Shown here in pieces: positions 1 to 12,828 of a DNA stretch of 37,497 bases (positions are counted from its first letter, which is position 1; each line of letters begins with the position of its first letter). Source of the stretch: Deltaproteobacteria bacterium. Its GTDB lineage: Bacteria; Desulfobacterota; DSM-4660; Desulfatiglandales; HGW-15. Made by a program: the position numbers and the translations under genes. Under the pieces are notes generated by a model. The model ran no database searches. It worked only from the letters and a program-made list of their open reading frames with translations, and was not told where the DNA came from. The stretch covers positions 1 to 37,497 of the forward strand of contig JAFGFM010000035.1 in the NCBI GenBank assembly GCA_016931115.1, read 5' to 3'.

Positions 1-1
1 C

Positions 2-508
2 GCCGATAAACTCATCGCGGCCTATCCCCCGGGCACAGGTACTGTGGCCAAAACCGCACGCGACCTGATGCGCGATGCAGCCTTCGGGTGGCAAACCTGG
101 ATCTGGGCGCGGTTACAGTCGAAGGCGGGTAAATCCAAGGTGTTTTACTATTACTTTGATCAGCACCCGGATTATCCTGCCGATTCACCTAAGGCAGGGC
201 AGGGATCGCCACACGGGCAGGAAGTGTCCTATGTGTTTCAGAACATGAATCCGAATCAGCAGCCCACCAAGTCAGACAAGGCAATTTCGGAGGCCATGGC
301 CGTCTACTGGACGAACTTCGCCAGATTCGGAGATCCGAACGGCTCAGGCCTCCCGGAGTGGCCCGCCTTCAGCGACGCCAACCCTGTGCTGATGTACTTC
401 TCCCAGACGCCTCACACCGGGCCGGTCCCCAGCGCAGATTCGCTTAAAGTCATGGATCAGTATTTTGCATGGCGAAGGACTCCCGAGGGCGAGGCCTTTG
501 TGAAATAG
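2..508 (+). CDS. Carboxylesterase type B (para-nitrobenzyl esterase family), C-terminal part
   Basis: The reading frame is open from the window edge, so the gene begins upstream; about 168 residues are visible. They match the C-terminal portion of the alpha/beta-hydrolase family of type B carboxylesterases, which hydrolyse carboxylic esters. Visible signs are a FYYYFDQHP strand, the segment PHGQEVSYVF that holds the catalytic histidine, the late motif YWTNFARFGDPNG, and the closing WPAFSD segment. The serine nucleophile and acidic residue would lie outside the window. Whether it is secreted cannot be judged because the N-terminus is missing. It ends 115 bp before the nitroreductase, with no clear terminator between them. 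Family assignment is firm; substrate is unknown. Confidence 0.87.
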   Translation, partial: ADKLIAAYPPGTGTVAKTARDLMRDAAFGWQTWIWARLQSKAGKSKVFYYYFDQHPDYPADSPKAGQGSPHGQEVSYVFQNMNPNQQPTKSDKAISEAMAVYWTNFARFGDPNGSGLPEWPAFSDANPVLMYFSQTPHTGPVPSADSLKVMDQYFAWRRTPEGEAFVK

Positions 509-623
509 GTCTGGTCCGTCGCTTGCCGGCTGTTCTTTTCTGAGCATGCCGGAGGCGTCACTGGAAAAGTATCTAAATAAAAAATAGAAAATAGAATATA
601 GAAAACAGAAAAGAGGGAAACTA

Positions 624-1202
624 ATGACTGTGATGGATAACGACACAATAAAATCGATACTGGCCCGCCGGAGTTATAAGGCCTTTGATAGCAGGCCTTT
701 CAGTGAGGATATCCTTGAAACGATTATTGAAGCAGGGAAATACGCACCGACTGGCAGGAACAGACAGGCCTGGCATTTTACAGTTGTTAAGTCTGAAGAT
801 GGCAAAAAGATGTATAAAGAGGCGCTTACTGATTTTATGATAAACGGTGGAGGTCCAAAAGTAGCGCCGCCACCTGTTCCGCCAAATATAATCGTAAAGC
901 CTGAACCTGAGTTCAGAGGTGCACCAGTACTGATTCTTGTTTCAGGTCCAGCTTCAGATGATCTCGTTCGCATAGACTGTGCACTGGCTATGGGAAATAT
1001 GTTTATCGCTGCCGCCTCTTTTGGGGTGATGTCAGGATGGACACATACCACTGTCAGGGACCTTTTTCCGGATCCTGCTGTAAAGAAAAAATTTAAAATT
1101 CCTGATGGTAACGATGTATATGCTGCTGCTTTTTTTGGTTATCCACTGGGTGAACCTAAAGATCGTGGTCCCAGGAAAGAGGGAACAGTTACGGTTGTTT
1201 AA
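624..1202 (+). CDS. Nitroreductase family FMN oxidoreductase
   Basis: A 192-residue protein of the nitroreductase superfamily, FMN enzymes that use NAD(P)H to reduce nitro groups, quinones or other electron acceptors. The N-terminal ARRSYKAFDSRPF segment and the following APTGRNRQAWHF are the family's FMN-phosphate and isoalloxazine contacts. A central DCALAMGNMFIAAASFGVMSGW helix region and a C-terminal FFGYPLG strand also fit. A second ATG lies three codons in (633); a purine-rich GAGGG stretch stands just before 624, so the first start was kept. A proline-rich insert (PPPVPP) at about residues 77-82 lies where family members vary most. It appears to be a single gene, followed by the heptad array. 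Substrate cannot be deduced. Confidence 0.9.
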   Translation: MTVMDNDTIKSILARRSYKAFDSRPFSEDILETIIEAGKYAPTGRNRQAWHFTVVKSEDGKKMYKEALTDFMINGGGPKVAPPPVPPNIIVKPEPEFRGAPVLILVSGPASDDLVRIDCALAMGNMFIAAASFGVMSGWTHTTVRDLFPDPAVKKKFKIPDGNDVYAAAFFGYPLGEPKDRGPRKEGTVTVV

Positions 1203-1207
1203 CCTTC

Positions 1208-1410
1208 AGGCTATAGGCTATAGACTGTAGGCTGTAGGTAACAGGTAATAGGTGATAGGTTGTAGACTGTAGACTGTAGACTGTAGGCTGTAGGCTAAAG
1301 GCTAAAGCCTAAAGCCTAAAGCCTAAAGCCTAAAGCCTAAAGCCTAAAGCCTAAAGACTAAAGACTAAAGACTAAAGACTAAAGACTAAAGACTATAGAC
1401 TATAGCCTGA
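1208..1410. repeat. Tandem array of 29 in-register 7-bp units
   Basis: Reading from 1208 in steps of seven gives 29 consecutive units without one phase break. The consensus is roughly AGRCTRW: AGGCTAT, AGACTGT, AGGCTGT, AGGTAAT and AGGTGAT early on, then AGGCTAA, seven AGCCTAA, five AGACTAA, two AGACTAT and a final AGCCTGA. Blocks of identical units sit next to each other, as expected from slippage. The unit length is not a multiple of three and the array is not coding. The same units recur at 4003-4030 and 5950-6012. This fills most of the spacer between the nitroreductase and the DUF3795 gene. Confidence 0.95.
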
Positions 1411-1472
1411 TATTTACATTACCACATAAAAAGATCGTTAAGATAAGCATTCTTAAAGGAGGAGGAAAAAAT

Positions 1473-2162
1473 ATGGCTTTACATAATAGCAGTAAAATAG
1501 GTCGAAGAATGTTTGTTAAAGGTCTTGCCGGTGCAGCTGTTTGCTGTGCCTGCTGTTCACTGGATCGCCTGGCAGCCTCAAAAGAAATTAAAGTACAGGG
1601 TGGTGAGGCCAAGGCACATCTGGCAGCCGCATGCGGGACATATTGCGGAGCCTGCCCTGCTTACCTCAATAAGCATGGTGGAGTTGCAGAGAATTATCCA
1701 TCCAGACCGGTAAATGCCAGTATTGACAGTTTCGTCGCTATGATGGAGACCTTACAATGCGACGGCTGTCTGAGCGGCGGTACACTTGCCGGTCATTGCC
1801 AGAACTGCAGCATAAGCCGATGCGCAGCAAACACACAGAATAACGATCGTTGTTCTGAGTGCACACAGTTACCCTGCTATCGTATTACCAATTTAATCAA
1901 CCAGGGCAACTATCCGCACCGTGACGAATATCTGCCAAACCTTGCAAAAATTCATGAAATGGGCCTTCAGGAATGGGCTATATACGAAGAAGAGCGCTGG
2001 AGTTGCCCGCAGTGCGGCGGTGCTATAAGCTGGTATGATACCCAGTGTACCGGATGCGGGGCCACAAGATCAAAGGACTTGTTTACCCTGTTTGAAGAAG
2101 AACCAACCATCCCGGATAAAAAGGTCTCTCTGCAGCCAGTTTTGAACCTGCTCCTGGAATGA
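1473..2162 (+). CDS. Tat-signal DUF3795 domain protein with C-terminal zinc ribbon
   Basis: 229 residues; a strong AAAGGAGGAGG ribosome-binding site stands before the ATG. The N-terminus has a twin-arginine leader (GRRMFVKGLAGAA, about residues 11-23) followed by a cysteine-rich CCACCS stretch. The body starts with ACGTYCGACPAYLNKHGG and continues with CDGCLSGG, HCQNCSISRC and CSECTQLPC, the cysteine pattern of DUF3795, a family of unknown function presumed to bind metal or an Fe-S cluster. A separate zinc ribbon (CPQCGG...CTGCGA) lies near residues 173-192. Tat export would mean the cofactor is loaded in the cytoplasm before transport. The next gene is also Tat-type, so the two may act together at the outer face of the membrane, but no reaction can be named. 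Confidence 0.85.
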   Translation: MALHNSSKIGRRMFVKGLAGAAVCCACCSLDRLAASKEIKVQGGEAKAHLAAACGTYCGACPAYLNKHGGVAENYPSRPVNASIDSFVAMMETLQCDGCLSGGTLAGHCQNCSISRCAANTQNNDRCSECTQLPCYRITNLINQGNYPHRDEYLPNLAKIHEMGLQEWAIYEEERWSCPQCGGAISWYDTQCTGCGATRSKDLFTLFEEEPTIPDKKVSLQPVLNLLLE

Positions 2163-2354
2163 ACCTCCCCGCTGCAAGGCAGCCGGGAATTAAACCTTTG
2201 CCCGCCTCTGGCGTACTAAATAATTTTATTGCTTCAACATTGGTCATTATTTTCGGAAATAAAAGGCGGAGCGTCAATAAAGGATGTTACCACTGTAGTA
2301 GTGGGAGCAAGAAAAGAAGGTGAAAAATAATTCTAAATCAAAGGAGGACTTTTT

Positions 2355-3242
2355 ATGGAAACCAGATTTACACGACGTGAAGTATTGGGATTGGTAGGAG
2401 CCGGTGCGGCAGTTTTAGGGGCATCCAGCCTTGCAAGTTCCGCAACTAAAAACGAAGCCACACCTGCGCAGCAGGAGGAACAGGCTATGACCCCTTTAGA
2501 GAAATTCAATAAATACGGTGAGGATCTCGAATATCACCTGATGCTTCGAACATCTCCTATTGCAGCCAAGATGCTTGTAAGTGAATCCGATATCCCTGTA
2601 GGGGCATTCAGGCCAAAAAAGGAGCGTGGATATCATTTTGCCCAGTGTCAGGCATTTGCCCTCTCCCGCAGGGACGGGGTCACGATCGCCATGCTGAAGG
2701 AAGATCACTGGTGTCCGGCAGCCCCCCTTGCCTATGGAAATGTGCCTCCGAACCAGCAGAGCCAGGACTATGACTGCTTTCCATATGGGAAATATGTTGG
2801 TATTGTCACAGCCCCGTTGAAAACCGCGAGTTTTATACCCGATGTGGTTATCATCTGGTCCAACAACGCCCAGTTGAGGTCACTTATCCTCTCCATGGAC
2901 AGAAAGGATAGCTCTCAAATAAAGAGCTGTTTTCTTCCCCCTTCCTGTTCATATTCCGTGGTCAATCCCATACAGGATGGTAACTACTGGGTTGTACTGC
3001 CTGACCCGGGAGAGTATGAAAGGGGATTAGGAACGGAAGACGAGATGATGTTCTCTGCCCCGGGTGCCAGGATGGAGAGCCTTATTTCCGGGTTGAGAAA
3101 GGGTGAAAAAGGATATTTTGCCTATCGTCATCATCATCCCTACATTCGGCCAAACTTTCCAAGACCCGATTTCTACAGGCAGTCATTTAAATCCTGGGGT
3201 CTGGATGCCGATGATACACTTGATTGGCCGGAATATAAATAG
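2355..3242 (+). CDS. Tat-signal DUF169 family protein
   Basis: 295 residues with an AAAGGAGG site before the ATG. Residues 4-30 are a Tat leader (TRREVLGLVGAGAAVLGASSL). The mature part begins PLEKFNKYGEDLEYHLMLRTSPIAAKML, the usual opening of DUF169 (COG2043, uncharacterised), followed by the conserved CQAFALSRRDG block and an HWCPAAPLAYG cysteine motif. The family is normally cytoplasmic, so a Tat leader is notable. A histidine run (YRHHHPYIRP) lies near the C-terminus. It is separated by about 190 bp from the DUF3795 gene, in the same direction, and both genes carry the same kind of leader. A rho-independent terminator follows. Function unknown. Confidence 0.85.
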   Translation: METRFTRREVLGLVGAGAAVLGASSLASSATKNEATPAQQEEQAMTPLEKFNKYGEDLEYHLMLRTSPIAAKMLVSESDIPVGAFRPKKERGYHFAQCQAFALSRRDGVTIAMLKEDHWCPAAPLAYGNVPPNQQSQDYDCFPYGKYVGIVTAPLKTASFIPDVVIIWSNNAQLRSLILSMDRKDSSQIKSCFLPPSCSYSVVNPIQDGNYWVVLPDPGEYERGLGTEDEMMFSAPGARMESLISGLRKGEKGYFAYRHHHPYIRPNFPRPDFYRQSFKSWGLDADDTLDWPEYK

Positions 3243-3310
3243 CGTATAGAAACATGACGTTAGAGGTACTCCATAAGCAGCTGAGTAACTATGTAATACA
3301 CTGATACCAG

Positions 3311-3352
3311 GGCGGTTAAAGGTTATTATCTTTAATCGCCTTGCTTTTTTTT
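3311..3352 (+). terminator. Rho-independent terminator after DUF169 gene
   Basis: GGCGGTTAAAG and CTTTAATCGCC form an 11-bp stem with one G-T wobble and an 8-base loop, followed by TTGC and eight T residues. It lies about 70 bp after the DUF169 stop codon. Confidence 0.85.
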
Positions 3353-3495
3353 GGGATAATTAAAGGAGAAATCAGATATTATTTTCTTAGCAGTGGATTT
3401 AAATAAGTGATCTCTTACAACATAAGCGTGCATGTTTTCCATGACCTGGTGCTGGATACAATAAAGAAATTCAGGTTTATACCCTGTGTAGCTTC

Positions 3496-3524
3496 TTGAC
3501 ATGATCATGGAATACCCCTATGCT
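3496..3524 (+). promoter_or_regulatory. Sigma70-type promoter for the exported SAM-hydroxide-transferase-like gene
   Basis: TTGACA at 3496-3501, a 17-bp spacer, and TATGCT at 3519-3524. A transcript from here would begin near 3531 and leave an untranslated leader of about 80 bases before the chosen ATG at 3612. Because the longest open frame would begin inside this -35 box (3501), the promoter argues against that longer start. Confidence 0.6.
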
Positions 3525-3611
3525 CATTATAAAGTTTACGAAAATGATCCTTTACATTCTTTTCAAAAAATATTTCCCGGATCTAAACACACGGAATCAA
3601 TGGAGGCAAAA

Positions 3612-4004
3612 ATGAAAAGAGGTCTTACGCTTGTGCTTGTGGTTGGCATCTTTCTGGTTACTTGCACCACATTGCTCGCGATCGAAACAGATAGCGCCAT
3701 ACATGATAGCAGCTCTGCATCCGGCATGGTAAGAGCCATTAATCCTGAATGGGGAAATATTGATACTGACTTTATGTATCCTGACCTGGAAAGGCTTGGG
3801 ATCACAAAAGGGAACATGTTCACGGTTCAATTCGAAGATAAAAGTTTCAAGGTAATAATGGCAACCACTTATGATGATGTACAACAAGGAGAATGGGTAG
3901 CTTTTATTACTCCCGATGGTTTTCTAAGGATTGCCAGAAATGTGGAGAGCGCGGTTGATCTGCTTGGATGTAAGCCGGGGGATAGGATTGTGATAAAAAA
4001 TTAG
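3612..4004 (+). CDS. Exported protein resembling the C-terminal domain of SAM hydroxide adenosyltransferase
   Basis: 130 residues from the ATG at 3612, which has GGAGG five bases upstream; the longer frame from 3501 would overlap the promoter. The first 22 or so residues (MKRGLTLVLVVGIFLVTCTTLLA) are a signal peptide. The mature part, from about GMVRAINPEWGNIDTDF to PGDRIVIKN, follows the beta-barrel C-terminal domain of the DUF62/SAM hydroxide adenosyltransferase family: the GNIDT start, a TFDD-like TTYDDVQQGE centre, and DGFLRIARNVESAVDLLGCKPGD. The N-terminal catalytic half of that family is absent, so the protein is unlikely to hydrolyse SAM by itself and may only bind a ligand. The TAG stop lies in the first unit of a heptad repeat. 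Confidence 0.7.
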   Translation: MKRGLTLVLVVGIFLVTCTTLLAIETDSAIHDSSSASGMVRAINPEWGNIDTDFMYPDLERLGITKGNMFTVQFEDKSFKVIMATTYDDVQQGEWVAFITPDGFLRIARNVESAVDLLGCKPGDRIVIKN

Positions 4005-4030
4005 GCTATAGACTATAGACTAAAGGCTAG
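4003..4030. repeat. Four-unit heptad repeat
   Basis: AGGCTAT, AGACTAT, AGACTAA, AGGCTAG in register, the same unit type as the array at 1208. It overlaps the last two bases of the preceding gene's stop codon. Confidence 0.85.
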
Positions 4031-4105
4031 CTACTTACGGACTGAAGAGTGAACCGGCTGAAAGCGGAAAGTGTTATTATTACCGAATCATACATTCCCG
4101 GTCTC

Positions 4106-4139
4106 TTGACATTTTTTGTGTGTAGTGTATTGTAATACA
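4106..4139 (+). promoter_or_regulatory. Promoter and inverted-repeat operator of the RHH/PIN toxin-antitoxin pair
   Basis: TTGACA at 4106-4111 is followed after 16 bp by TATTGT (4128-4133). The -10 region lies inside TGTATTGTAATACA (4126-4139), an inverted repeat with 6-bp arms and a GT centre. Ribbon-helix-helix antitoxins typically bind such sites and repress their own promoter, so this is the likely operator; the binding is inferred. Confidence 0.7.
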
Positions 4140-4163
4140 AAAAACAAAAAGGAGGTGTTCGGG

Positions 4164-4382
4164 ATGAGAACAGTTCTTTCTGTGAGTTTGCCCGAAAATC
4201 TGGCAAAGGATTTGAGTGACTTTGCCTGTGAAACAGGCCGTAACAAAAGCGATATTTTAAAGGATTCTCTTGTACGGTATATCTGGGACGCTAAACTGCG
4301 CAAGGCGCAGGAACTGTTTTATACAAAAGCCAAAGCAAAGGGCATAGTTACCGAGGAAGATATGTTGAGAGAGATCTCGTGA
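4164..4382 (+). CDS. Ribbon-helix-helix (CopG-like) antitoxin
   Basis: 72 residues from the ATG at 4164, chosen because AAAGGAGGTGTTC precedes it; a longer frame from 4116 would begin within the promoter. MRTVLSVSLPENLAKDLSDFACETGRNKSDILKDSLVRYI is a ribbon-helix-helix domain: the beta strand RTVLSVSLP inserts in the DNA major groove and the ETGRNKSD turn joins two helices. The rest of the chain would wrap the PIN toxin. Its TGA stop overlaps the toxin's GTG start, so the two are translationally coupled. It presumably represses the operator at 4126-4139. Confidence 0.87.
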   Translation: MRTVLSVSLPENLAKDLSDFACETGRNKSDILKDSLVRYIWDAKLRKAQELFYTKAKAKGIVTEEDMLREIS

Positions 4383-4783
4383 AAACGATCCTGGACACAA
4401 ACGTTCTGCTTTCTGCGTTTCTTACCGACGGTACATGCGCCCGCATCCTGAAACGGGCACGACAAAAGGATTTTTCATTCATACTCTGTGAACCGGTCTT
4501 ACTCGAAACAAAACGGCTGTTAAAAAACAAGTTCTCCCTTTCATCCAGGGATATCAAACTCTTTGTCTCCATACTTACTGAAGCTGCGGATGTGGTATAT
4601 CACCCTGCGGGAGTGCCTCCTTCTATATGTCGTGATCCGGATGATGATATCATCCTTGTCTGTGCTGCGGAAACAGAAAGCGATTTTCTTGTAACCGGAG
4701 ACAAAGACCTTCTGGTACTTAAGGCGTATCAAGGTGCCAAAATTATTGGTCCCAGGGATTTTGAACTTCTTTTCATGGATTAA
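4379..4783 (+). CDS. PIN-domain ribonuclease toxin
   Basis: 134 residues starting at GTG 4379, overlapping the antitoxin stop by four bases. The protein belongs to the PIN family of the COG1569/TIGR00305 type. The acidic residues expected of a metal-dependent ribonuclease are all present: D in ILDTNVLLSAFL (near residue 6), E in PVLLETKRLL, the DPDDD cluster in RDPDDDIILVCA, and D in VTGDKDLLVL. The catalytic set looks intact, so the module should be active. Known relatives cut RNA and stop translation; the target here cannot be predicted. The following membrane-protein gene starts two bases after the stop and may be co-transcribed. Confidence 0.87.
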   Translation: MKTILDTNVLLSAFLTDGTCARILKRARQKDFSFILCEPVLLETKRLLKNKFSLSSRDIKLFVSILTEAADVVYHPAGVPPSICRDPDDDIILVCAAETESDFLVTGDKDLLVLKAYQGAKIIGPRDFELLFMD

Positions 4784-4784
4784 T

Positions 4785-5192
4785 ATGGTTGATCTGGTTA
4801 ACTGGCTAATAATTGTTATCAGTTATTTTTCATCTGTAATCTGTTCCATGCTCCTGTTCACAGCAAGAACCCAGATTCCTGAACAGACAGTATATATTAT
4901 TTTCTGGCTTGGTCTTTTCGTCGGAACGATTGGCCTGATAATACAGGCCAGGAAAGATCTATATAATGTCTGCATTTTTACAACTGTATCCGGTTTTTTA
5001 GCCACTGTTATTTTTAGTTCTATCATCTATTATGGAACAGTACCACATCCTGTCGCTACCAGCCTTGCAGTTGCTGGGGCTTTACTCATGATCACAAATA
5101 ATAGAGGGGAATACAGGAAGCCAGGAAACTCAACAGGAAAAAGATTTCCGGTTTTTTATCCATTTCTTCTGAGGCTCAGCACATCAGCTTAA
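4785..5192 (+). CDS. Small four-helix membrane protein of unknown function
   Basis: 135 residues starting at ATG 4785, two bases after the PIN toxin stop. Four hydrophobic segments are visible: about residues 5-25, 33-52, 58-80 and 86-100. A polar, basic tail (RGEYRKPGNSTGKRF) follows. I do not recognise a family. The tight spacing suggests read-through from the toxin-antitoxin promoter. No Shine-Dalgarno core is close to the ATG, which also points to translational coupling. Confidence 0.6.
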   Translation: MVDLVNWLIIVISYFSSVICSMLLFTARTQIPEQTVYIIFWLGLFVGTIGLIIQARKDLYNVCIFTTVSGFLATVIFSSIIYYGTVPHPVATSLAVAGALLMITNNRGEYRKPGNSTGKRFPVFYPFLLRLSTSA

Positions 5193-5213
5193 GCCTGATC
5201 AAAGGACAATATT

Positions 5214-5918
5214 TTGGAAAATATATCTATTAAGTATTGCTTTAAGTTTCCAAATGAGACTCAGGAGGTATTTGATCTTGAATTAGATGCACAGAGTCTT
5301 GAGCTGGTTGCTGACATTCCGGAAAATCCTCCTCAGTGGGTTACGCTTGATTTCCACCAGTGCCCGAACTGCCCGCTGGATAGTCGTACCCATCCTGAAT
5401 GCCCATTAATGGTGCACTTCATTGATATCGTTGATCGTTTCGATCGCATTTTATCATATGATAAGGTCAGGCTGGAGGTGGTGATGGATGAGAGGACCGT
5501 TTCCCGCTCAATCACAGCCCAGAAAGGTCTCAGCTCTCTTGTAGGAATTGTGATTAGTGCCAGTGGTTGTCCCCATACAAAATTTTTTAAACCCATGTTA
5601 CGTTTTCATCTGCCTTTGTCCAGTGAAGCAGAGACCATATACCGTGCTGTATCCATGTATATGCTGGCCCAGTATTTTGTACAAAAAGAGGGGAAAAAGG
5701 CTGATTTTGAACTGCATGGCCTTGAAAAGATCTACAATAATATGCATGTGATAAATACTGCAATTGCAGAACGCCTGCGAGTTGCAAGTAAAACTGATGC
5801 ACTGGTTAATGCCATTATATTATTGGATATGTTCACAGGAACAATTCCATCTGTTATTGATGAATCCCTGGAAGAACTCCGGTATCTGTTTAATCCATAC
5901 CTGGAAAATAAAAGCTGA
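5214..5918 (+). CDS. Conserved cytoplasmic protein with CPNCPL motif (DUF6901-like)
   Basis: 234 residues starting at TTG 5214, with AAAGGA seven bases upstream. Visible features are an N-terminal beta-rich region (IKYCFKFPNETQEVFDLELD), a motif HQCPNCPLDSRTHPECPL near residues 47-64 with four cysteines, the block LSSLVGIVISASGCPHTKFFKPM, and a helical C-terminal half. The overall pattern matches, from memory, the family annotated DUF6901; I could not check this. There is no signal peptide or membrane segment. Four cysteines in a small loop, plus another CPH, suggest a metal site. No function known. Confidence 0.75.
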   Translation: MENISIKYCFKFPNETQEVFDLELDAQSLELVADIPENPPQWVTLDFHQCPNCPLDSRTHPECPLMVHFIDIVDRFDRILSYDKVRLEVVMDERTVSRSITAQKGLSSLVGIVISASGCPHTKFFKPMLRFHLPLSSEAETIYRAVSMYMLAQYFVQKEGKKADFELHGLEKIYNNMHVINTAIAERLRVASKTDALVNAIILLDMFTGTIPSVIDESLEELRYLFNPYLENKS

Positions 5919-5949
5919 TAAAGGGGATAGAACTGGGAATGATAAAAAC

Positions 5950-6012
5950 AGGTAATGGGTCATAGGTAATAGGTGATGGGTAAGAGGTGAGAGGGTATAG
6001 ACTGTAGACTGT
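5950..6012. repeat. Nine-unit heptad repeat
   Basis: From 5950: AGGTAAT, GGGTCAT, AGGTAAT, AGGTGAT, GGGTAAG, AGGTGAG, AGGGTAT, AGACTGT, AGACTGT, all in register. Same family as 1208-1410, but richer in the AGGTRAT variant. Confidence 0.85.
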
Positions 6013-6040
6013 CAGCAATTTAAAAACAAAGATTTCTATT

Positions 6041-6169
6041 TAACCGCGAACCACGTCCGCCGTCGTAAAAGACACTCTCACTATGGCGGGACAGGCGAAA
6101 AACGCAAAAGTAAAAATAAAAAAATAAAATAGATAATATTTAAATTCTTTTTCGTGTGGTTCGTGGTTC
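6041..6169. repeat. CACGAA/TTCGTG inverted repeat, copy 1, with nested element
   Basis: The outer arms GAACCACG (6048-6055) and CGTGGTTC (6162-6169) are perfect complements and belong to the same family as the copies at 6189, 7191, 9722 and 9821. Inside, at about 6055-6095, is a foreign segment with GTCCGCCGTCG...ACTATGGCGGGAC that also occurs in unrelated repeats at 14303, 32095 and 37137. The middle is A-rich. Confidence 0.8.
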
Positions 6170-6188
6170 ATAGATTTAAGATTTTATT

Positions 6189-6279
6189 TACCACGAAATA
6201 CACGAAAAGCACGAAAGGGTTTTATTATTTTAGTAATAAATAGTTTTTGTTCGTGTGGTTCGTGTGGTTCGCGGTTAAC
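6189..6279. repeat. CACGAA/TTCGTG inverted repeat, copy 2
   Basis: Starts TACCACGAAATACACGAAAA, contains the segment GTTTTATTATTTTAGTAATA, and ends with GTTCGTGTGGTTCGTGTGG and CGCGGTTAAC. Left and right arms are complementary, so the transcript would fold into a long imperfect hairpin. Nearly identical to the copy at 7191. Together with copy 1 it fills the 575-bp spacer before the lipoprotein gene. Confidence 0.9.
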
Positions 6280-6493
6280 TTTTTCTGTGTCCTCCGTGGT
6301 TGAAAATCTTTTTTAGTTAAAGCCAGGGCTGTTTTTTTAACATCAGGTGACTATTTTATAAAAAAAGGTGTCTAGAATAGTAAAACACTCATTTGAGGGA
6401 TACGGCTTTAATAAATACAATTTATTGCATCTCACTTTTTTATTACTGGTTTATAATATAACCATAATTTACTGGAAGCAATGGAGGCCCATG

Positions 6494-7180
6494 ATGATAA
6501 GCAGGAATCAGATCAGAATGAAAAGATACAATGGCGTTTCTCTGGCAGGAAGTATCGTTATTTATGCGGTCCTGGTGCTGGCGGTGTTTGCACTTAGTGG
6601 CTGCCGAAGTAATAATGACCCATTGCGTACATACGATACAGAAATCGTAAGCGATATGGATGCTGACGGCGACATCGGGCTGGCTCTTGACGACACCTAT
6701 GCGGTCTCTACAGCTATAGATACGGGGAGTGTTCTCGCAGGGATCGATCCAGTGACAGGTGAAGAGTTTCGCGGTTTTCTCAATTTCCCGCTCCGGGAAG
6801 TCGATGGAATTCCCCGGAATGCTCTCATTGAATCGGCGACACTGGAGGTTTTTATCGCAGGGATGAGCGATTCACAGTCCGGCCAATTTTTACCATTCCT
6901 GATCGATCTGGTTGATTTTCAGCCGCCTTATCTTGTGGCTGGCGATTTCAGCCGGGCGATCCAGCCCCCCCTGCTGACAATGCTCATCAATTTCTACCCT
7001 TCAGATGTTGGCCACTTAGTGGTAATAGATGTTACAGAACTGGTGGATGAGGCACAGTATCAGGGGCTGCCGGATTTGCAATTGAGGTTTCTGCTCGATT
7101 TTTCGGCAGATTCAGGTTTAATTGAAATAGATGACGCTGATTTTGCCACTGCGCCGCTGTTAAAAGTGACCTACTACTGA
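6494..7180 (+). CDS. Lipoprotein with DNRLRE-like beta-sandwich domain
   Basis: 228 residues from ATG 6494, chosen because GGAGG stands six bases upstream; a longer frame from 6368 has no signal upstream. The N-terminus has basic residues (NQIRMKRYNG), a hydrophobic core and the lipobox LSGC, giving a lipid-anchored protein. The mature part resembles the DNRLRE family of extracellular beta-sandwich domains: LNFPLREV...ALIESATLEVFI early, DVTELV in the middle and a final FATAPLLKVTYY. Such domains are structural or sugar-binding modules. The gene stands alone between two copies of the CACGAA repeat. The domain assignment is moderate; the lipoprotein call is firm. Confidence 0.7.
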   Translation: MISRNQIRMKRYNGVSLAGSIVIYAVLVLAVFALSGCRSNNDPLRTYDTEIVSDMDADGDIGLALDDTYAVSTAIDTGSVLAGIDPVTGEEFRGFLNFPLREVDGIPRNALIESATLEVFIAGMSDSQSGQFLPFLIDLVDFQPPYLVAGDFSRAIQPPLLTMLINFYPSDVGHLVVIDVTELVDEAQYQGLPDLQLRFLLDFSADSGLIEIDDADFATAPLLKVTYY

Positions 7181-7190
7181 GCCAATTATC

Positions 7191-7280
7191 TACCACGAAA
7201 TACACTAAATACACGAAAGGGTTTTATTATTTTAGTAATAAATAGTTTTTGTTCGTGTGGTTCGTGTGATTCGCGGTTCA
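7191..7280. repeat. CACGAA/TTCGTG inverted repeat, copy 3
   Basis: Begins 11 bp after the lipoprotein stop. Same sequence as copy 2 with a few substitutions, including TACACTAAATACACGAAAGG and GTGATTCGCGGTTC. It can fold as a hairpin at the 3' end of the lipoprotein transcript. The following 190 bp up to 7471 show no gene or clear signal. Confidence 0.9.
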
Positions 7281-7471
7281 TAGTTTTAAAGAACGATTTA
7301 TTTCGGGCAAGCTCAAAAGGATGCAGGGACAATGATCAGTTATCAGTTAAAGTTAATTTCAAGTTACACCATGTAGAGCAAGTCAATCCTTATTCAATTC
7401 AATACAAAAAAGATTCACCCCATTTAATATTGCTTCGCAACCCCCTCTGTAAATAGAGTCTTTATTATTAT

Positions 7472-7500
7472 TTGCAAAACAGATAATATCTGTTTATTAT
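7472..7500 (+). promoter_or_regulatory. Promoter with palindromic operator in its spacer, upstream of the AOR-family gene
   Basis: TTGCAA (7472-7477) and TATTAT (7495-7500) are 17 bp apart. The spacer is occupied by AAACAGATAATATCTGTTT (7477-7495), a perfect 19-bp inverted repeat with a single central base. A dimeric regulator bound there would cover the promoter. The regulator is unknown, and the gene start is 95 bp downstream. Confidence 0.6.
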
Positions 7501-7595
7501 GTTAAAAATAGCATATTCCATTAAATAGCATTGTTATAAGTTTCGCTCTTTTTGTGCCGACACCAGGCGGCATGTTTAATGAAAGGAGAACTATT

Positions 7596-9698
7596 ATGGC
7601 TGCACCAGGATTTGGCGGAAAATTATTGCTGGTTAATCTTACCAGTAAACAGGTAACAGCACTGGACACAGAAAAATATGAACAGTTCGGCGGAGGGCAT
7701 GGAATGGCCACTGCGCTTTTCTGGGATTATTGCGTAGCACCCGGAGAGTGGGATCTCCAGGACGCCTTTCACCCGAATAATATGGTTGCTATTATAACCG
7801 GTCCGGTAAGCGGGACAGGTGTGCCATGGGCAGCAAGGACAAGTGTTTCAGGATTATCACCCCAGTGTTATCCCATACAGTGGTTCGGCCACAGCAATTT
7901 CGGCGGCATGTTCGGTGCCTTTATGAAAATGGCCGGCTGGGACGGTGTGGCTGTCATTGGCAGGGCTGAGTCCCCGGTATACATCAATGTGGTGGATGAC
8001 AGGGTGACCATTGAAGATGCAAAGGAGCTGTGGGGTTTAACCACGTGGGAATGCCAGGAGGAGATATGGAAGAGATCCGGCATCCGATACGGCAAGGAGT
8101 GGCAGGAAATCGAAGACAGGTATACGCTTCAGAGACCGGCCATTGTAACCATAGGGCCAGCTGGCGAAAACATGACCAGGGTAGCTTCCCTTGTCCACGG
8201 AGGCGGAAGCGGTGCCGGGCAGGGAGGGTTCGGCGGGGTATTTGGCTCCAAGAACCTCAAGGCAATTGCCTTTCTTGGAACAAAGGGGATAAAAATAGCC
8301 GATCCAAAAGGATTGCAGGATGTAAGGGACTGGTATTACAAAAACTGGCCGGCCGGGGCACCCCCTTTTGCCGGCCAGGGGGTATCATCAGCGTGTATTG
8401 GCTGCGGGCAGGTAAGAAAGTGTCATAACCGGGACAGGGTACATGGCCAGGATTCGGATGGCTGCGCAGAGGCCGGATGGTTTTATCTTACACCCCAGGA
8501 TGCAAATGGGATGTCCGATGCAGAAAAATTCAGGATTAACGCTAAAGGCACAGACATTGTCCAGCAGCTCGGCATAAACGGTATGGAGACCTGTTTCATG
8601 GGCCCCCTGACATTTAAAACCGATCATAATCCCGGTTTCCCGATCCAGCCGGAAGTACCTGCCTATACAGCCCTTGGGTGGTATATGAAGAGGATGTATG
8701 ACATGGGGGTTATAGGCCCCGGTACAAAATATGACATGGCCCCTCTCAACATGAAAAAGTTCGCCACACAGGAGTTCATGGAGATCTACGGGATCGCCCT
8801 GGCAAACCGTTACGGGATAGGTGACCTGCTGGCCGAGGGAACAGCACGCATGGCGGATAAACTTGGAAGGACTGATGACTTTAACACCCTGGCCAGGCTG
8901 ACCAACTGGGGTTATGTGGATCACTGGTCCATGCCCGGGGTTGACTGGGCCTATGGAAACCTGATGGATTCAAGGGACATCAACAGCCATGATATAGACC
9001 TTGCAAACCCGGCAGTGGGTCTAATGGGTCTGGGGGGCGGCGGAAACAGCAAATGGTCATGCGAAGAGTTTGTAAAGATCCATGCAGAACGAACCACGCG
9101 CAATAACCCCTACTGGTTTGATTTCAGCTGGGAGGGTAAGCAGGCACACAAAACGGGAGTATTTTCAAGACACAAGGCGGAATTTGTCGCATGGCGCATG
9201 CATTACTGGACCTATTACAAGGAATCGGTTGGGTTCTGTGACTGGGGTTATACCAAACTGTTTGATGCAAACCACCCGAAAGGCTATGGCTATACCCCGG
9301 AGGCTGAACCAGCCTGGCTTAACGCAATCACCGGAAGGAAACACACCTTTGAGGATGGGCTTGAAATGGGAAGACGTGCCTGGAATCTGAAACGGGCAAT
9401 TTTTGCCCTCCAGGGCAGGCACAGAAAGATGGAAAAATTTAATGGCTACATGTACAGACCCGGTGCCTCCTATTGCGGATTTTACAACACAAAGCCTGTA
9501 TACGATGGGAAAAACTGGGAATGGAAGGACTGCAAAGAGCTCTACCTGACTGAAGAGGGTGTAGAACAGTGGAAGAGCTATTTCTATGAGATCGAAGGCT
9601 GGGATAAGGATTCGGGTTATCCGAAGAGGAAAACCCTCGAAGATCTTGGTCTGAAATATGCTGCTGATCTGCTTTCTAAAAAATTTGCTTCGGTATAG
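7596..9698 (+). CDS. Aldehyde:ferredoxin oxidoreductase family tungsten/molybdenum enzyme
   Basis: 700 residues from ATG 7596, preceded by AAAGGAG; an in-frame ATG at 7554 lacks a site. Members hold a W- or Mo-bis(pyranopterin) cofactor and a [4Fe-4S] cluster and oxidise aldehydes to acids with ferredoxin; the BamB branch acts in benzoyl-CoA reduction. The N-terminal domain shows FGGGHGMATALFWD, GPVSGTGVPWAARTSVSG and FGGMFGAFMKMAGWDGVAV, typical of the cofactor-binding beta barrel. Cluster ligands are probably C267, C270 and C276 (CIGCGQVRKC), with C548 in ESVGFC. The spacing between the second and third cysteines (five residues) differs from the usual three. No ferredoxin or cofactor genes lie nearby, so the electron partner must be encoded elsewhere. 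No export signal. Substrate unknown. Confidence 0.9.
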   Translation: MAAPGFGGKLLLVNLTSKQVTALDTEKYEQFGGGHGMATALFWDYCVAPGEWDLQDAFHPNNMVAIITGPVSGTGVPWAARTSVSGLSPQCYPIQWFGHSNFGGMFGAFMKMAGWDGVAVIGRAESPVYINVVDDRVTIEDAKELWGLTTWECQEEIWKRSGIRYGKEWQEIEDRYTLQRPAIVTIGPAGENMTRVASLVHGGGSGAGQGGFGGVFGSKNLKAIAFLGTKGIKIADPKGLQDVRDWYYKNWPAGAPPFAGQGVSSACIGCGQVRKCHNRDRVHGQDSDGCAEAGWFYLTPQDANGMSDAEKFRINAKGTDIVQQLGINGMETCFMGPLTFKTDHNPGFPIQPEVPAYTALGWYMKRMYDMGVIGPGTKYDMAPLNMKKFATQEFMEIYGIALANRYGIGDLLAEGTARMADKLGRTDDFNTLARLTNWGYVDHWSMPGVDWAYGNLMDSRDINSHDIDLANPAVGLMGLGGGGNSKWSCEEFVKIHAERTTRNNPYWFDFSWEGKQAHKTGVFSRHKAEFVAWRMHYWTYYKESVGFCDWGYTKLFDANHPKGYGYTPEAEPAWLNAITGRKHTFEDGLEMGRRAWNLKRAIFALQGRHRKMEKFNGYMYRPGASYCGFYNTKPVYDGKNWEWKDCKELYLTEEGVEQWKSYFYEIEGWDKDSGYPKRKTLEDLGLKYAADLLSKKFASV

Positions 9699-9721
9699 GT
9701 GATAAAAAAACTGATTTTTTT

Positions 9722-9802
9722 TTAACCACGAAAAGCACGAAAGGTTTTTATTGTTATAGTAATAAATAGTTTTGTTCGTGTGGTTCGTGTGGTTCGCGGT
9801 TC
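9722..9802. repeat. CACGAA/TTCGTG inverted repeat, copy 4
   Basis: TTAACCACGAAAAGCACGAAAG at the left, the AGTAATAAATAGTTTTG centre shared with copies 2 and 3, and GTTCGTGTGGTTCGTGTGG with CGCGGTTC at the right. It lies just after the AOR-family gene. Confidence 0.9.
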
Positions 9803-9820
9803 AAAGACTAAAGATTTTTT

Positions 9821-9904
9821 TAACCGCGAAAGGGGCGAACAGCGCGAAAGTTAAAAATATGAAAGTAATATTTAATGTTTTTGTTCTTGTGGTTCGTGGT
9901 TAAC
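9821..9904. repeat. CACGAA/TTCGTG inverted repeat, copy 5 (diverged)
   Basis: TAACCGCGAAAGGGGCGAAC at the left and GTTCTTGTGGTTCGTGGTTA at the right, with an A/T-rich centre different from copies 2-4. It sits 18 bp after copy 4 in the same spacer. Confidence 0.8.
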
Positions 9905-9986
9905 TTTTTTTAAGATGAATGTAAGCAATATTTTGTTCTTTCCAAAAAGTTGAGTTTCTTGCCTGGTAAATATAAGAGGCGAAACC

Positions 9987-10015
9987 TTGACTTACCTGCC
10001 AACCCTTCTTAAAAT
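9987..10015 (+). promoter_or_regulatory. Sigma70-type promoter for the TPR protein
   Basis: TTGACT at 9987-9992 and TAAAAT at 10010-10015 with a 17-bp spacer. The start would fall about 60 bases before the ATG at 10083. Confidence 0.65.
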
Positions 10016-12181: not shown

Positions 12182-12415
12182 ATGGAATCAATAGTAACAT
12201 CCAAATTCCAGACCACTATCCCTAAGACAGTAAGAGATAATCTTAAGATTAAAGTCAACGATGCTATTGAATGGAAGATAGAAAATGGCAGGGTTATTAT
12301 TACCCCTGTCCAGGCAAAATTTCTGAAGCACAAAAATAGTGTAAGCACAGGAAAGGGAAACATCAGCGAAGATATCCAGACGGCAAGAAAGATGAGGGCA
12401 GAAAGATACAGATGA
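12182..12415 (+). CDS. AbrB/SpoVT-type (VapB-like) antitoxin
   Basis: 77 residues. MESIVTSKFQTTIPKTVRDNLKIKVNDAIEWKIENGRVIITPV is a swapped-hairpin AbrB DNA-binding domain with the usual TSKFQTTIPK strand and the GD-like turn replaced by VNDAIEW. The tail (SEDIQTARKMRAERYR) would bind the PIN toxin. The stop overlaps the toxin ATG by four bases, so the pair is translationally coupled. An inverted-repeat operator overlaps the promoter just upstream. The antitoxin family differs from that of the pair at 4164. Confidence 0.88.
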   Translation: MESIVTSKFQTTIPKTVRDNLKIKVNDAIEWKIENGRVIITPVQAKFLKHKNSVSTGKGNISEDIQTARKMRAERYR

Positions 12416-12828
12416 AAAAGATAATCATTGATACCAATGTACTTATCTCTTTTATAACGGATAGAGACCTTGAACAGCAAAAAATGGCATCAGTTCTGTT
12501 CTACGGTGCTTCTCAATATAAATATCTTATTTTATGCCCTCAAAATGTATTGACCGAGTTTATTTTTGTCATGGATAAGGTATATAACTCATCATTGGAA
12601 AAGATTAATGAAATCCTGAATGATTTTATTTCAATGCCGGGAATAGAGGTTATACATGACCTGGATTTACAACTGGTTCTCTCATACTGGCCAAAATATT
12701 TCAGTGATTTTGGAGATGCAATTGTTGCTTCTGTATGCAAAGGCATCAAAGGAACATCTGTAGCAACTTTTGACCGAAAATTCAAAAATGCCTTAAAAAA
12801 AGCAGATATTGAAATACAATCCTTTTGA
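12412..12828 (+). CDS. PIN-domain ribonuclease toxin (VapC-like)
   Basis: 138 residues, with an ATGA overlap with the antitoxin. Acidic residues of the PIN site are all visible: D in IIIDTNVLISFI (near residue 7), E in NVLTEFIFV, D in DFGDAIVAS and D in VATFDRKF. It is therefore likely to be an active metal-dependent ribonuclease. The sequence is only distantly similar to the PIN toxin at 4379, so the two modules are not a recent duplication. RNA target unknown. Confidence 0.88.
   Translation: MKKIIIDTNVLISFITDRDLEQQKMASVLFYGASQYKYLILCPQNVLTEFIFVMDKVYNSSLEKINEILNDFISMPGIEVIHDLDLQLVLSYWPKYFSDFGDAIVASVCKGIKGTSVATFDRKFKNALKKADIEIQSF

Follow-up and report, generated by a model that had tools for sequence, protein, structure and literature searches.

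The window under study is the whole of a 37,497-nucleotide contig (C52) from a deltaproteobacterial genome, here called G000 (5.18 Mb in 240 contigs), and it carries three related tandem arrays of seven-base units, the longest of which follows a nitroreductase gene. This main array had been recorded in a preliminary description of the DNA as 29 heptads in perfect register, and the register indeed holds from end to end. Two relatives reported there, starting at positions 4003 and 5950, were found as well, downstream of a gene for a SAM hydroxide adenosyltransferase C-terminal-like domain (SAM-HAT-C) and of a DUF6901 gene, respectively (Table 1). As was also claimed, all three lie at or just past a stop codon; the genes upstream of them are ordinary. 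For the oxidoreductase gene at 7596-9698, the closest relatives that bear a name are MAG contigs labelled Deltaproteobacteria. Here we relate these arrays to a small element in which similar arrays enclose an open reading frame (ORF) of the PF05635 family.

Table 1. Arrays, genes and other features in the window.
Feature	Position	Strand	Remarks
AT-rich heptad array	575-612	+	unit AAATAGA; just 5' of the nitroreductase start
Nitroreductase gene	624-1202	+	PF00881; stop codon 5 bp before the main array
Main heptad array	1208-1410	+	203 bp; 29 AGNNNNN units, register unbroken
SAM-HAT-C gene	3501-4004	+	PF20257; 5' neighbour of the array at 4003
Heptad array	4003-4030	+	four units; begins inside the SAM-HAT-C stop codon, whose TAG is common to the first unit
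Probable toxin-antitoxin module	4116-4783		ribbon-helix-helix/PIN pair (Pfam)
DUF6901 gene	5214-5918	+	PF21842; 5' neighbour of the array at 5950
Heptad array	5950-6012	+	nine units, AGGTAAT/GGGTCAT type, AGACTGT twice at the end; 31 bp past DUF6901
Tandem 9-mer hairpin (three copies)	6184-6276, 7186-7278, 9727-9801		ORF-less, copies about 95% alike; arms CACGAAATA / GTTCGTGTG
Oxidoreductase gene	7596-9698		
Probable toxin-antitoxin module	12182-12828		AbrB-like/PIN-looking pair (by eye)

Read 5' to 3', the main array consists of AGGCTAT (two copies), AGACTGT, AGGCTGT, AGGTAAC, AGGTAAT, AGGTGAT, AGGTTGT, AGACTGT (three), AGGCTGT, AGGCTAA (two), AGCCTAA (seven), AGACTAA (five), AGACTAT (two), and AGCCTGA. 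Its outermost ends, TCAGGCTATAG (1206-1216) and CTATAGCCTGA (1400-1410), are inverted relative to each other over the outer 11 bp. The runs of identical units support the slippage proposed earlier, as does the comparison with a congener, G001, in which copy number is not identical: at the orthologous sites, six units follow the nitroreductase gene (vs 29 in G000) and 15 follow the SAM-HAT-C gene (vs four), the units being partly different. The nitroreductase DNA itself is 89% identical in G001. Gene order near these arrays has changed in the congener, with the arrays sitting at the junctions, and the AT-rich array in front of the nitroreductase gene is akin to AGAAAAT/AGGAAAT heptads of G001 spacers.

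Genome-wide statements are based on pattern searches and samples. A scan for AGRYTRW heptads, suggested in the preliminary description, revealed many further copies: (AGRYTRW)x3 has 43 exact matches in G000, the reversed pattern none, an excess beyond chance, and matches are present in 34 of 99 relatives. The spacers concerned also hold other heptad families (AGCTCAA, AGGCTCA, AGGTTAA, AGACAGA, and GAACATC), some of them fused in one register. For an array census we took 485 kb of G000 on 40 contigs, chosen blind to arrays, and scored those intergenic segments in which 21 or more of 28 positions agreed at a particular lag. This yielded 16 intergenic arrays at lag 7, 12 at lag 14, and six at lag 21, with at most two at each other lag from 4 to 20; 16 of the 19 census segments were intergenic, at a coding density of 0.88. 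A total of about 170 arrays in the genome is no more than an extrapolation from this census. Period 7 is thus conserved and general in G000, while the unit is free and interchangeable, with many unrelated units. Half of the census arrays (8/16) terminate no more than 15 bp from a stop codon, in line with the 3'-end bias suspected earlier; this is our own count in a small sample, with genes called by simple ORF picking, a shortcut that influences the distances to stops. The seeding between loci that had been postulated is supported by the same variants at many sites and by a few pairs of arrays that share unit order. Order common beyond a unit-shuffle null was detected between the main array and that at 5950 (p=0.01), and between the main array and a non-orthologous G001 site (0/200 shuffles), although only four of 105 array pairs reached p<=0.01.

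Analysis of the heptad arrays of G000 revealed two array clusters enclosing a small PF05635 ORF, which encodes a 23S rRNA-intervening-sequence protein (S23p/IVP, annotated as 'four helix bundle', a relative of Avd). For a homologue of the IVP protein the structure has been solved (2RLD). PF05635 has 18 matches in G000, 13 of them above the curated cut-off, and none in 14 control genomes. Among 350 background genes of the sample, period-7 arrays border a single one from either side; by its coordinates it is the PF05635 ORF on contig C15. The flanks of PF05635 loci were tested for reverse complementarity against 200 shuffles, the loci tested first in each genome being those with the best scores, whatever their flanks. 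Reverse-complement flanks were found at 11 of 12 loci in G000 (0-1/200 shuffles). The flanks of related sub-threshold proteins are not reverse complements. The five sub-threshold matches served as a negative set: four represent another four-helix protein and have no arms, while L158, the remaining one, is a decayed fragment next to heptad arrays. L155 is, like L158, a decayed PF05635 ORF with arms.

The same arrangement recurs in this phylum, where the flanks are inverted (0/200 shuffles) at 40 of 55 PF05635 loci and direct at 10; the arms have a period of 7 (51 arms) or 8 (14 arms), and of 39 arms lying 5' of the ORF, 33 are purine-rich. A complete element measures roughly 440-780 bp in the measured examples, its arm unit differs from that of other elements, and in 11 of 12 predicted folds the arms pair mostly with each other. 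On plasmids, mainly of cyanobacteria but also of Bacteroidota, Spirochaetota, Bacillota, and Chloroflexota, all 18 loci examined have inverted flanks at 0/200, 17 of them with period-7 arms such as (CAATTCG)n in Nostoc N6 and (GTAATTC)n in Dolichospermum. Control genes rarely have inverted flanks (1-5%): 1 of 80, 3 of 59 from three plasmids of this set (one being an IS630 transposase), and 3 of 200 in G000. Furthermore, many of the heptad-armed PF05635 ORFs split tight operons, including the defence operons hsdS/hsdR, cas2/cas1 (in two cyanobacteria), cas6/cas4, and DUF1156/Swt1 (in two phyla; loci L260, L265, L268, L270, L272, and L273). One PF05635 ORF has strong direct, non-inverted repeat flanks (L248:1096-1413; G015:C298:4095-4412), and long direct repeats also occur at L151, L272, and L273.

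Comparison of the two congeners provides a view of gain and loss. In G000, trpF and trpB lie about 512 bp apart, separated by an arm, a PF05635 ORF, and a second arm, whereas in G001 the two genes abut and no heptads are present; ORF and arms being absent together, the arms evidently travel with the ORF. The element, inserted close to the 3' end of trpF in G000, is in frame and gives a 349-residue TrpF-IVP fusion ORF (L146:814-1863, on contig C128). At the recA locus, GGTGAAT arrays enclose a PF05635 ORF in G000 but, in G001, an island of 8.2 kb that is unrelated to it, so the arrays may also serve as exchange points. That island (C101, 29.3-37.6 kb; L255) carries large helicase-like genes.

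Several observations connect such elements with arrays that stand alone. At C128:11972 (L145/L056), a complete element has arms composed of AGRCTRW, the unit family of the window. A solo array of the AGRCT family (L053), directly past a stop codon, is present in G000 and absent from G001, and has unit order in common with one arm of that element (0/200). There are also ORF-less inverted pairs with arms only 7-8 bp apart (L100 and L050), the first of which is missing in G001. Finally, 37 intergenic period-7 arrays were counted in 142 kb from eight genomes with PF05635, and none in 57 kb from six genomes without it, where about 15 would be expected; families f1 and f3 supply genomes to both sets.

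On these grounds we lean towards the view that the window arrays stem from a family of small selfish elements, either as arms that have no ORF or as derivatives, the link being one of association. A number of observations weigh against it. No PF05635 ORF or fragment is present in the window, so its arrays are not complete elements, and none of them has a separate inverted partner within 350 bp. The main array folds well against dinucleotide shuffles (z of -5.5 on the + strand and -8.8 on the - strand) but has no advantage over versions whose units were reordered at random. Its self-complementarity hence lies in the unit AGNCTNN, which when rotated equals its own reverse complement, and not in unit order; a palindromic layout of the array, considered as a candidate, was not supported by the same comparison. 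Solo arrays are far more numerous than complete elements, and 49 of the 60 tested have no detectable partner. The genome-level association between PF05635 and arrays comes from 14 genomes, a small sample of related organisms, and no mobilising enzyme for the element was identified.

The main rival holds that the arrays are plain short tandem repeats, built up in spacers through replication slippage that favours a step of 7 bases, in which blocks arise by mutation and local re-expansion, the PF05635 arms being separate or secondary. We regard this as possible, if doubtful. Slippage shaped the main array under either reading, and the homogeneous blocks, the differences in copy number and unit between orthologous sites, the many unrelated unit families, and the weak sharing of unit order overall are all readily accommodated; PMC4679880 also cites an earlier proposal that slippage prefers steps of 7 nucleotides. 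Slippage alone does not, however, account for inverted complementary arms around one ORF family in six phyla, for arms that arrive with the ORF at the empty trpF/trpB site, for whole arrays gained between abutting genes, or for the absence of arrays from the sampled genomes that lack PF05635. Were the elements instead inserting into pre-existing heptad arrays, one would understand why arrays exceed PF05635 ORFs in G000 and why the recA arrays bound different inserts in the two species; such a target preference would, however, predict direct flanks, where inverted ones predominate fourfold (40 vs 10 of 55), and the empty trpF/trpB site has no array. We consider it very improbable and disfavour it.

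A regulatory role would fit the closeness of the arrays to stop codons, and precedents can be cited: TAACTGA heptads upstream of starts in Beggiatoaceae have been suggested to be regulatory (PMC4679880), and GGGNATC repeats of Xanthomonas favour positions within 50 bp of stops (PMC4692102). We nevertheless rate this as slightly less probable still, since the unit is swapped freely among sites and species, presence varies between congeners, and nearness to stops is also expected where genes must not be disrupted. Column-specific conservation, a sign of binding motifs, showed no excess in the arrays, in what is a weak test because the statistic flattens counts. A telomere-like or CRISPR-like (clustered regularly interspaced short palindromic repeat) nature has a negligible probability and is refuted by the census. 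CCTAAAG does superficially resemble plant telomere units, but the arrays are internal, have many unit types and no spacers, and show no contig-end preference in the loci read. Of the interpretation offered in the preliminary description, slippage, seeding, and, in a small sample, the 3' bias are supported, while the telomere likeness is superficial.

If the window arrays do derive from the element, its life cycle might be pictured as follows. A complete element comprises a PF05635 ORF between reverse-complement arms, each a short tandem array with a period of mostly 7 and sometimes 8. Transcription through it would produce a long imperfect stem, processed or tolerated like the intervening sequences of 23S rRNA, and insertion at stop codons between co-transcribed genes would therefore do little harm. 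ORF-less arms could arise by loss of the ORF or by the spread of arms alone, and would then grow and drift by 7-base slippage into arrays such as that at 1208-1410.

Such an inverted heptad-armed element, occurring in several phyla, may explain the origin of bacterial heptanucleotide repeats. A far wider proposition is that all of these repeats, including those of cyanobacteria, Xanthomonas, Beggiatoaceae, and Geobacter, are arms or leftovers of one widespread and so far undescribed class of S23p/IVP mobile elements whose movement builds inverted arms anew, the unit being specific to each element and the step fixed at 7 bases; this we think rather unlikely. If the narrower reading is right, two orphan observations, heptad repeats and the frequent PF05635 ORFs outside rRNA, would merge into one mobile-element family, and presence/absence differences in tight operons, CRISPR-Cas and restriction loci included, would be explained. 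It would also raise the question as to what writes 7-base repeats of a new unit as inverted pairs. The anatomy is offered in testable form: one ORF, two complementary heptad arms, a step fixed at seven, and a free unit.

Other repeats were observed alongside these arrays. The tandem 9-mer hairpins of the window, of which more copies occur elsewhere in G000, in G001, and in G027, may represent the same phenomenon with a period of 9. No Rfam match was obtained in positions 1-10000 of the window at gathering scores. The heptad AGGTTGAAGACTGAAGGCTGA, abundant in the genome G041, looked alike, but the three copies read (L079, L080, and L082) belong to a dispersed miniature inverted-repeat transposable element (MITE) of about 250 bp with terminal inverted repeats (GTATCTACTCAGG..CTGGGTAGTTAC), and they are not counted as evidence. 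Two copies have 8-bp target duplications (TCTTGGTT and AAATTTCT), the heptads lying in the subterminal part. In three genomes (G024:C283, G045:C80, and G074:C33; L230-L232), heptad phrases of the AGGCTGA kind also occur some 30 bp away from PF05635 ORFs, so arms may be common to this MITE and the IVP elements.

The elements and arrays described here can be set against four known systems. PF05635 resembles Avd (PMC10053308) of the diversity-generating retroelements, and bAvd (PF22296) is a weaker second match of one ORF studied here. On account of this kinship a reverse transcriptase was considered as helper; the idea was dropped, as reverse transcriptase presence does not track the PF05635 ORF among the 14 genomes. 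A template/variable repeat pair was not seen, and none was sought. With MITEs and repetitive extragenic palindromic (REP) sequences, the arrays share the lack of an ORF, dispersal, hairpin formation, and intergenic location; they differ in having arms of tandem heptads whose sequence is free, in place of fixed terminal inverted repeats, and in that the window arrays have no established target duplication.

The intervening sequences of 23S rRNA in Coxiella, Leptospira, and others carry an S23p ORF within complementary borders, are excised by RNase III in several bacteria, and are sporadic and described as selfish (PMC4990558). The elements reported here are likewise sporadic, but both the PF05635 loci read and the window arrays lie between protein-coding genes and not in an rRNA gene, the arms consist of heptads in tandem whose unit is particular to each element, and the window arrays have no ORF. 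Heptad repeats, for their part, are known as the short tandemly repeated repetitive (STRR) sequences of cyanobacteria and from Xanthomonas, Beggiatoaceae, and Geobacter metallireducens (PMC4692102, PMC4679880, PMC2700814), with no agreed origin or function across several lineages (PMC4692102, PMC4679880). Unit sequences differ from those found here, where many families coexist in one genome, and the 29 units of the main array contain no GGG and thus lack the runs of the G-quadruplex type of Xanthomonas and Nostoc. Inverted pairing around an ORF family was not reported in the earlier papers, and our search of the openly licensed literature found no description of S23p/IVP elements with heptad arms outside rRNA. 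What the window arrays do share with STRR-type repeats is the 7-base tandem unit, dispersal, a mainly intergenic location, and variable copy number. S23p ORFs within complementary borders in rRNA, and heptad repeats in several lineages, were each known before; no paper in the openly licensed literature was found to join the two.
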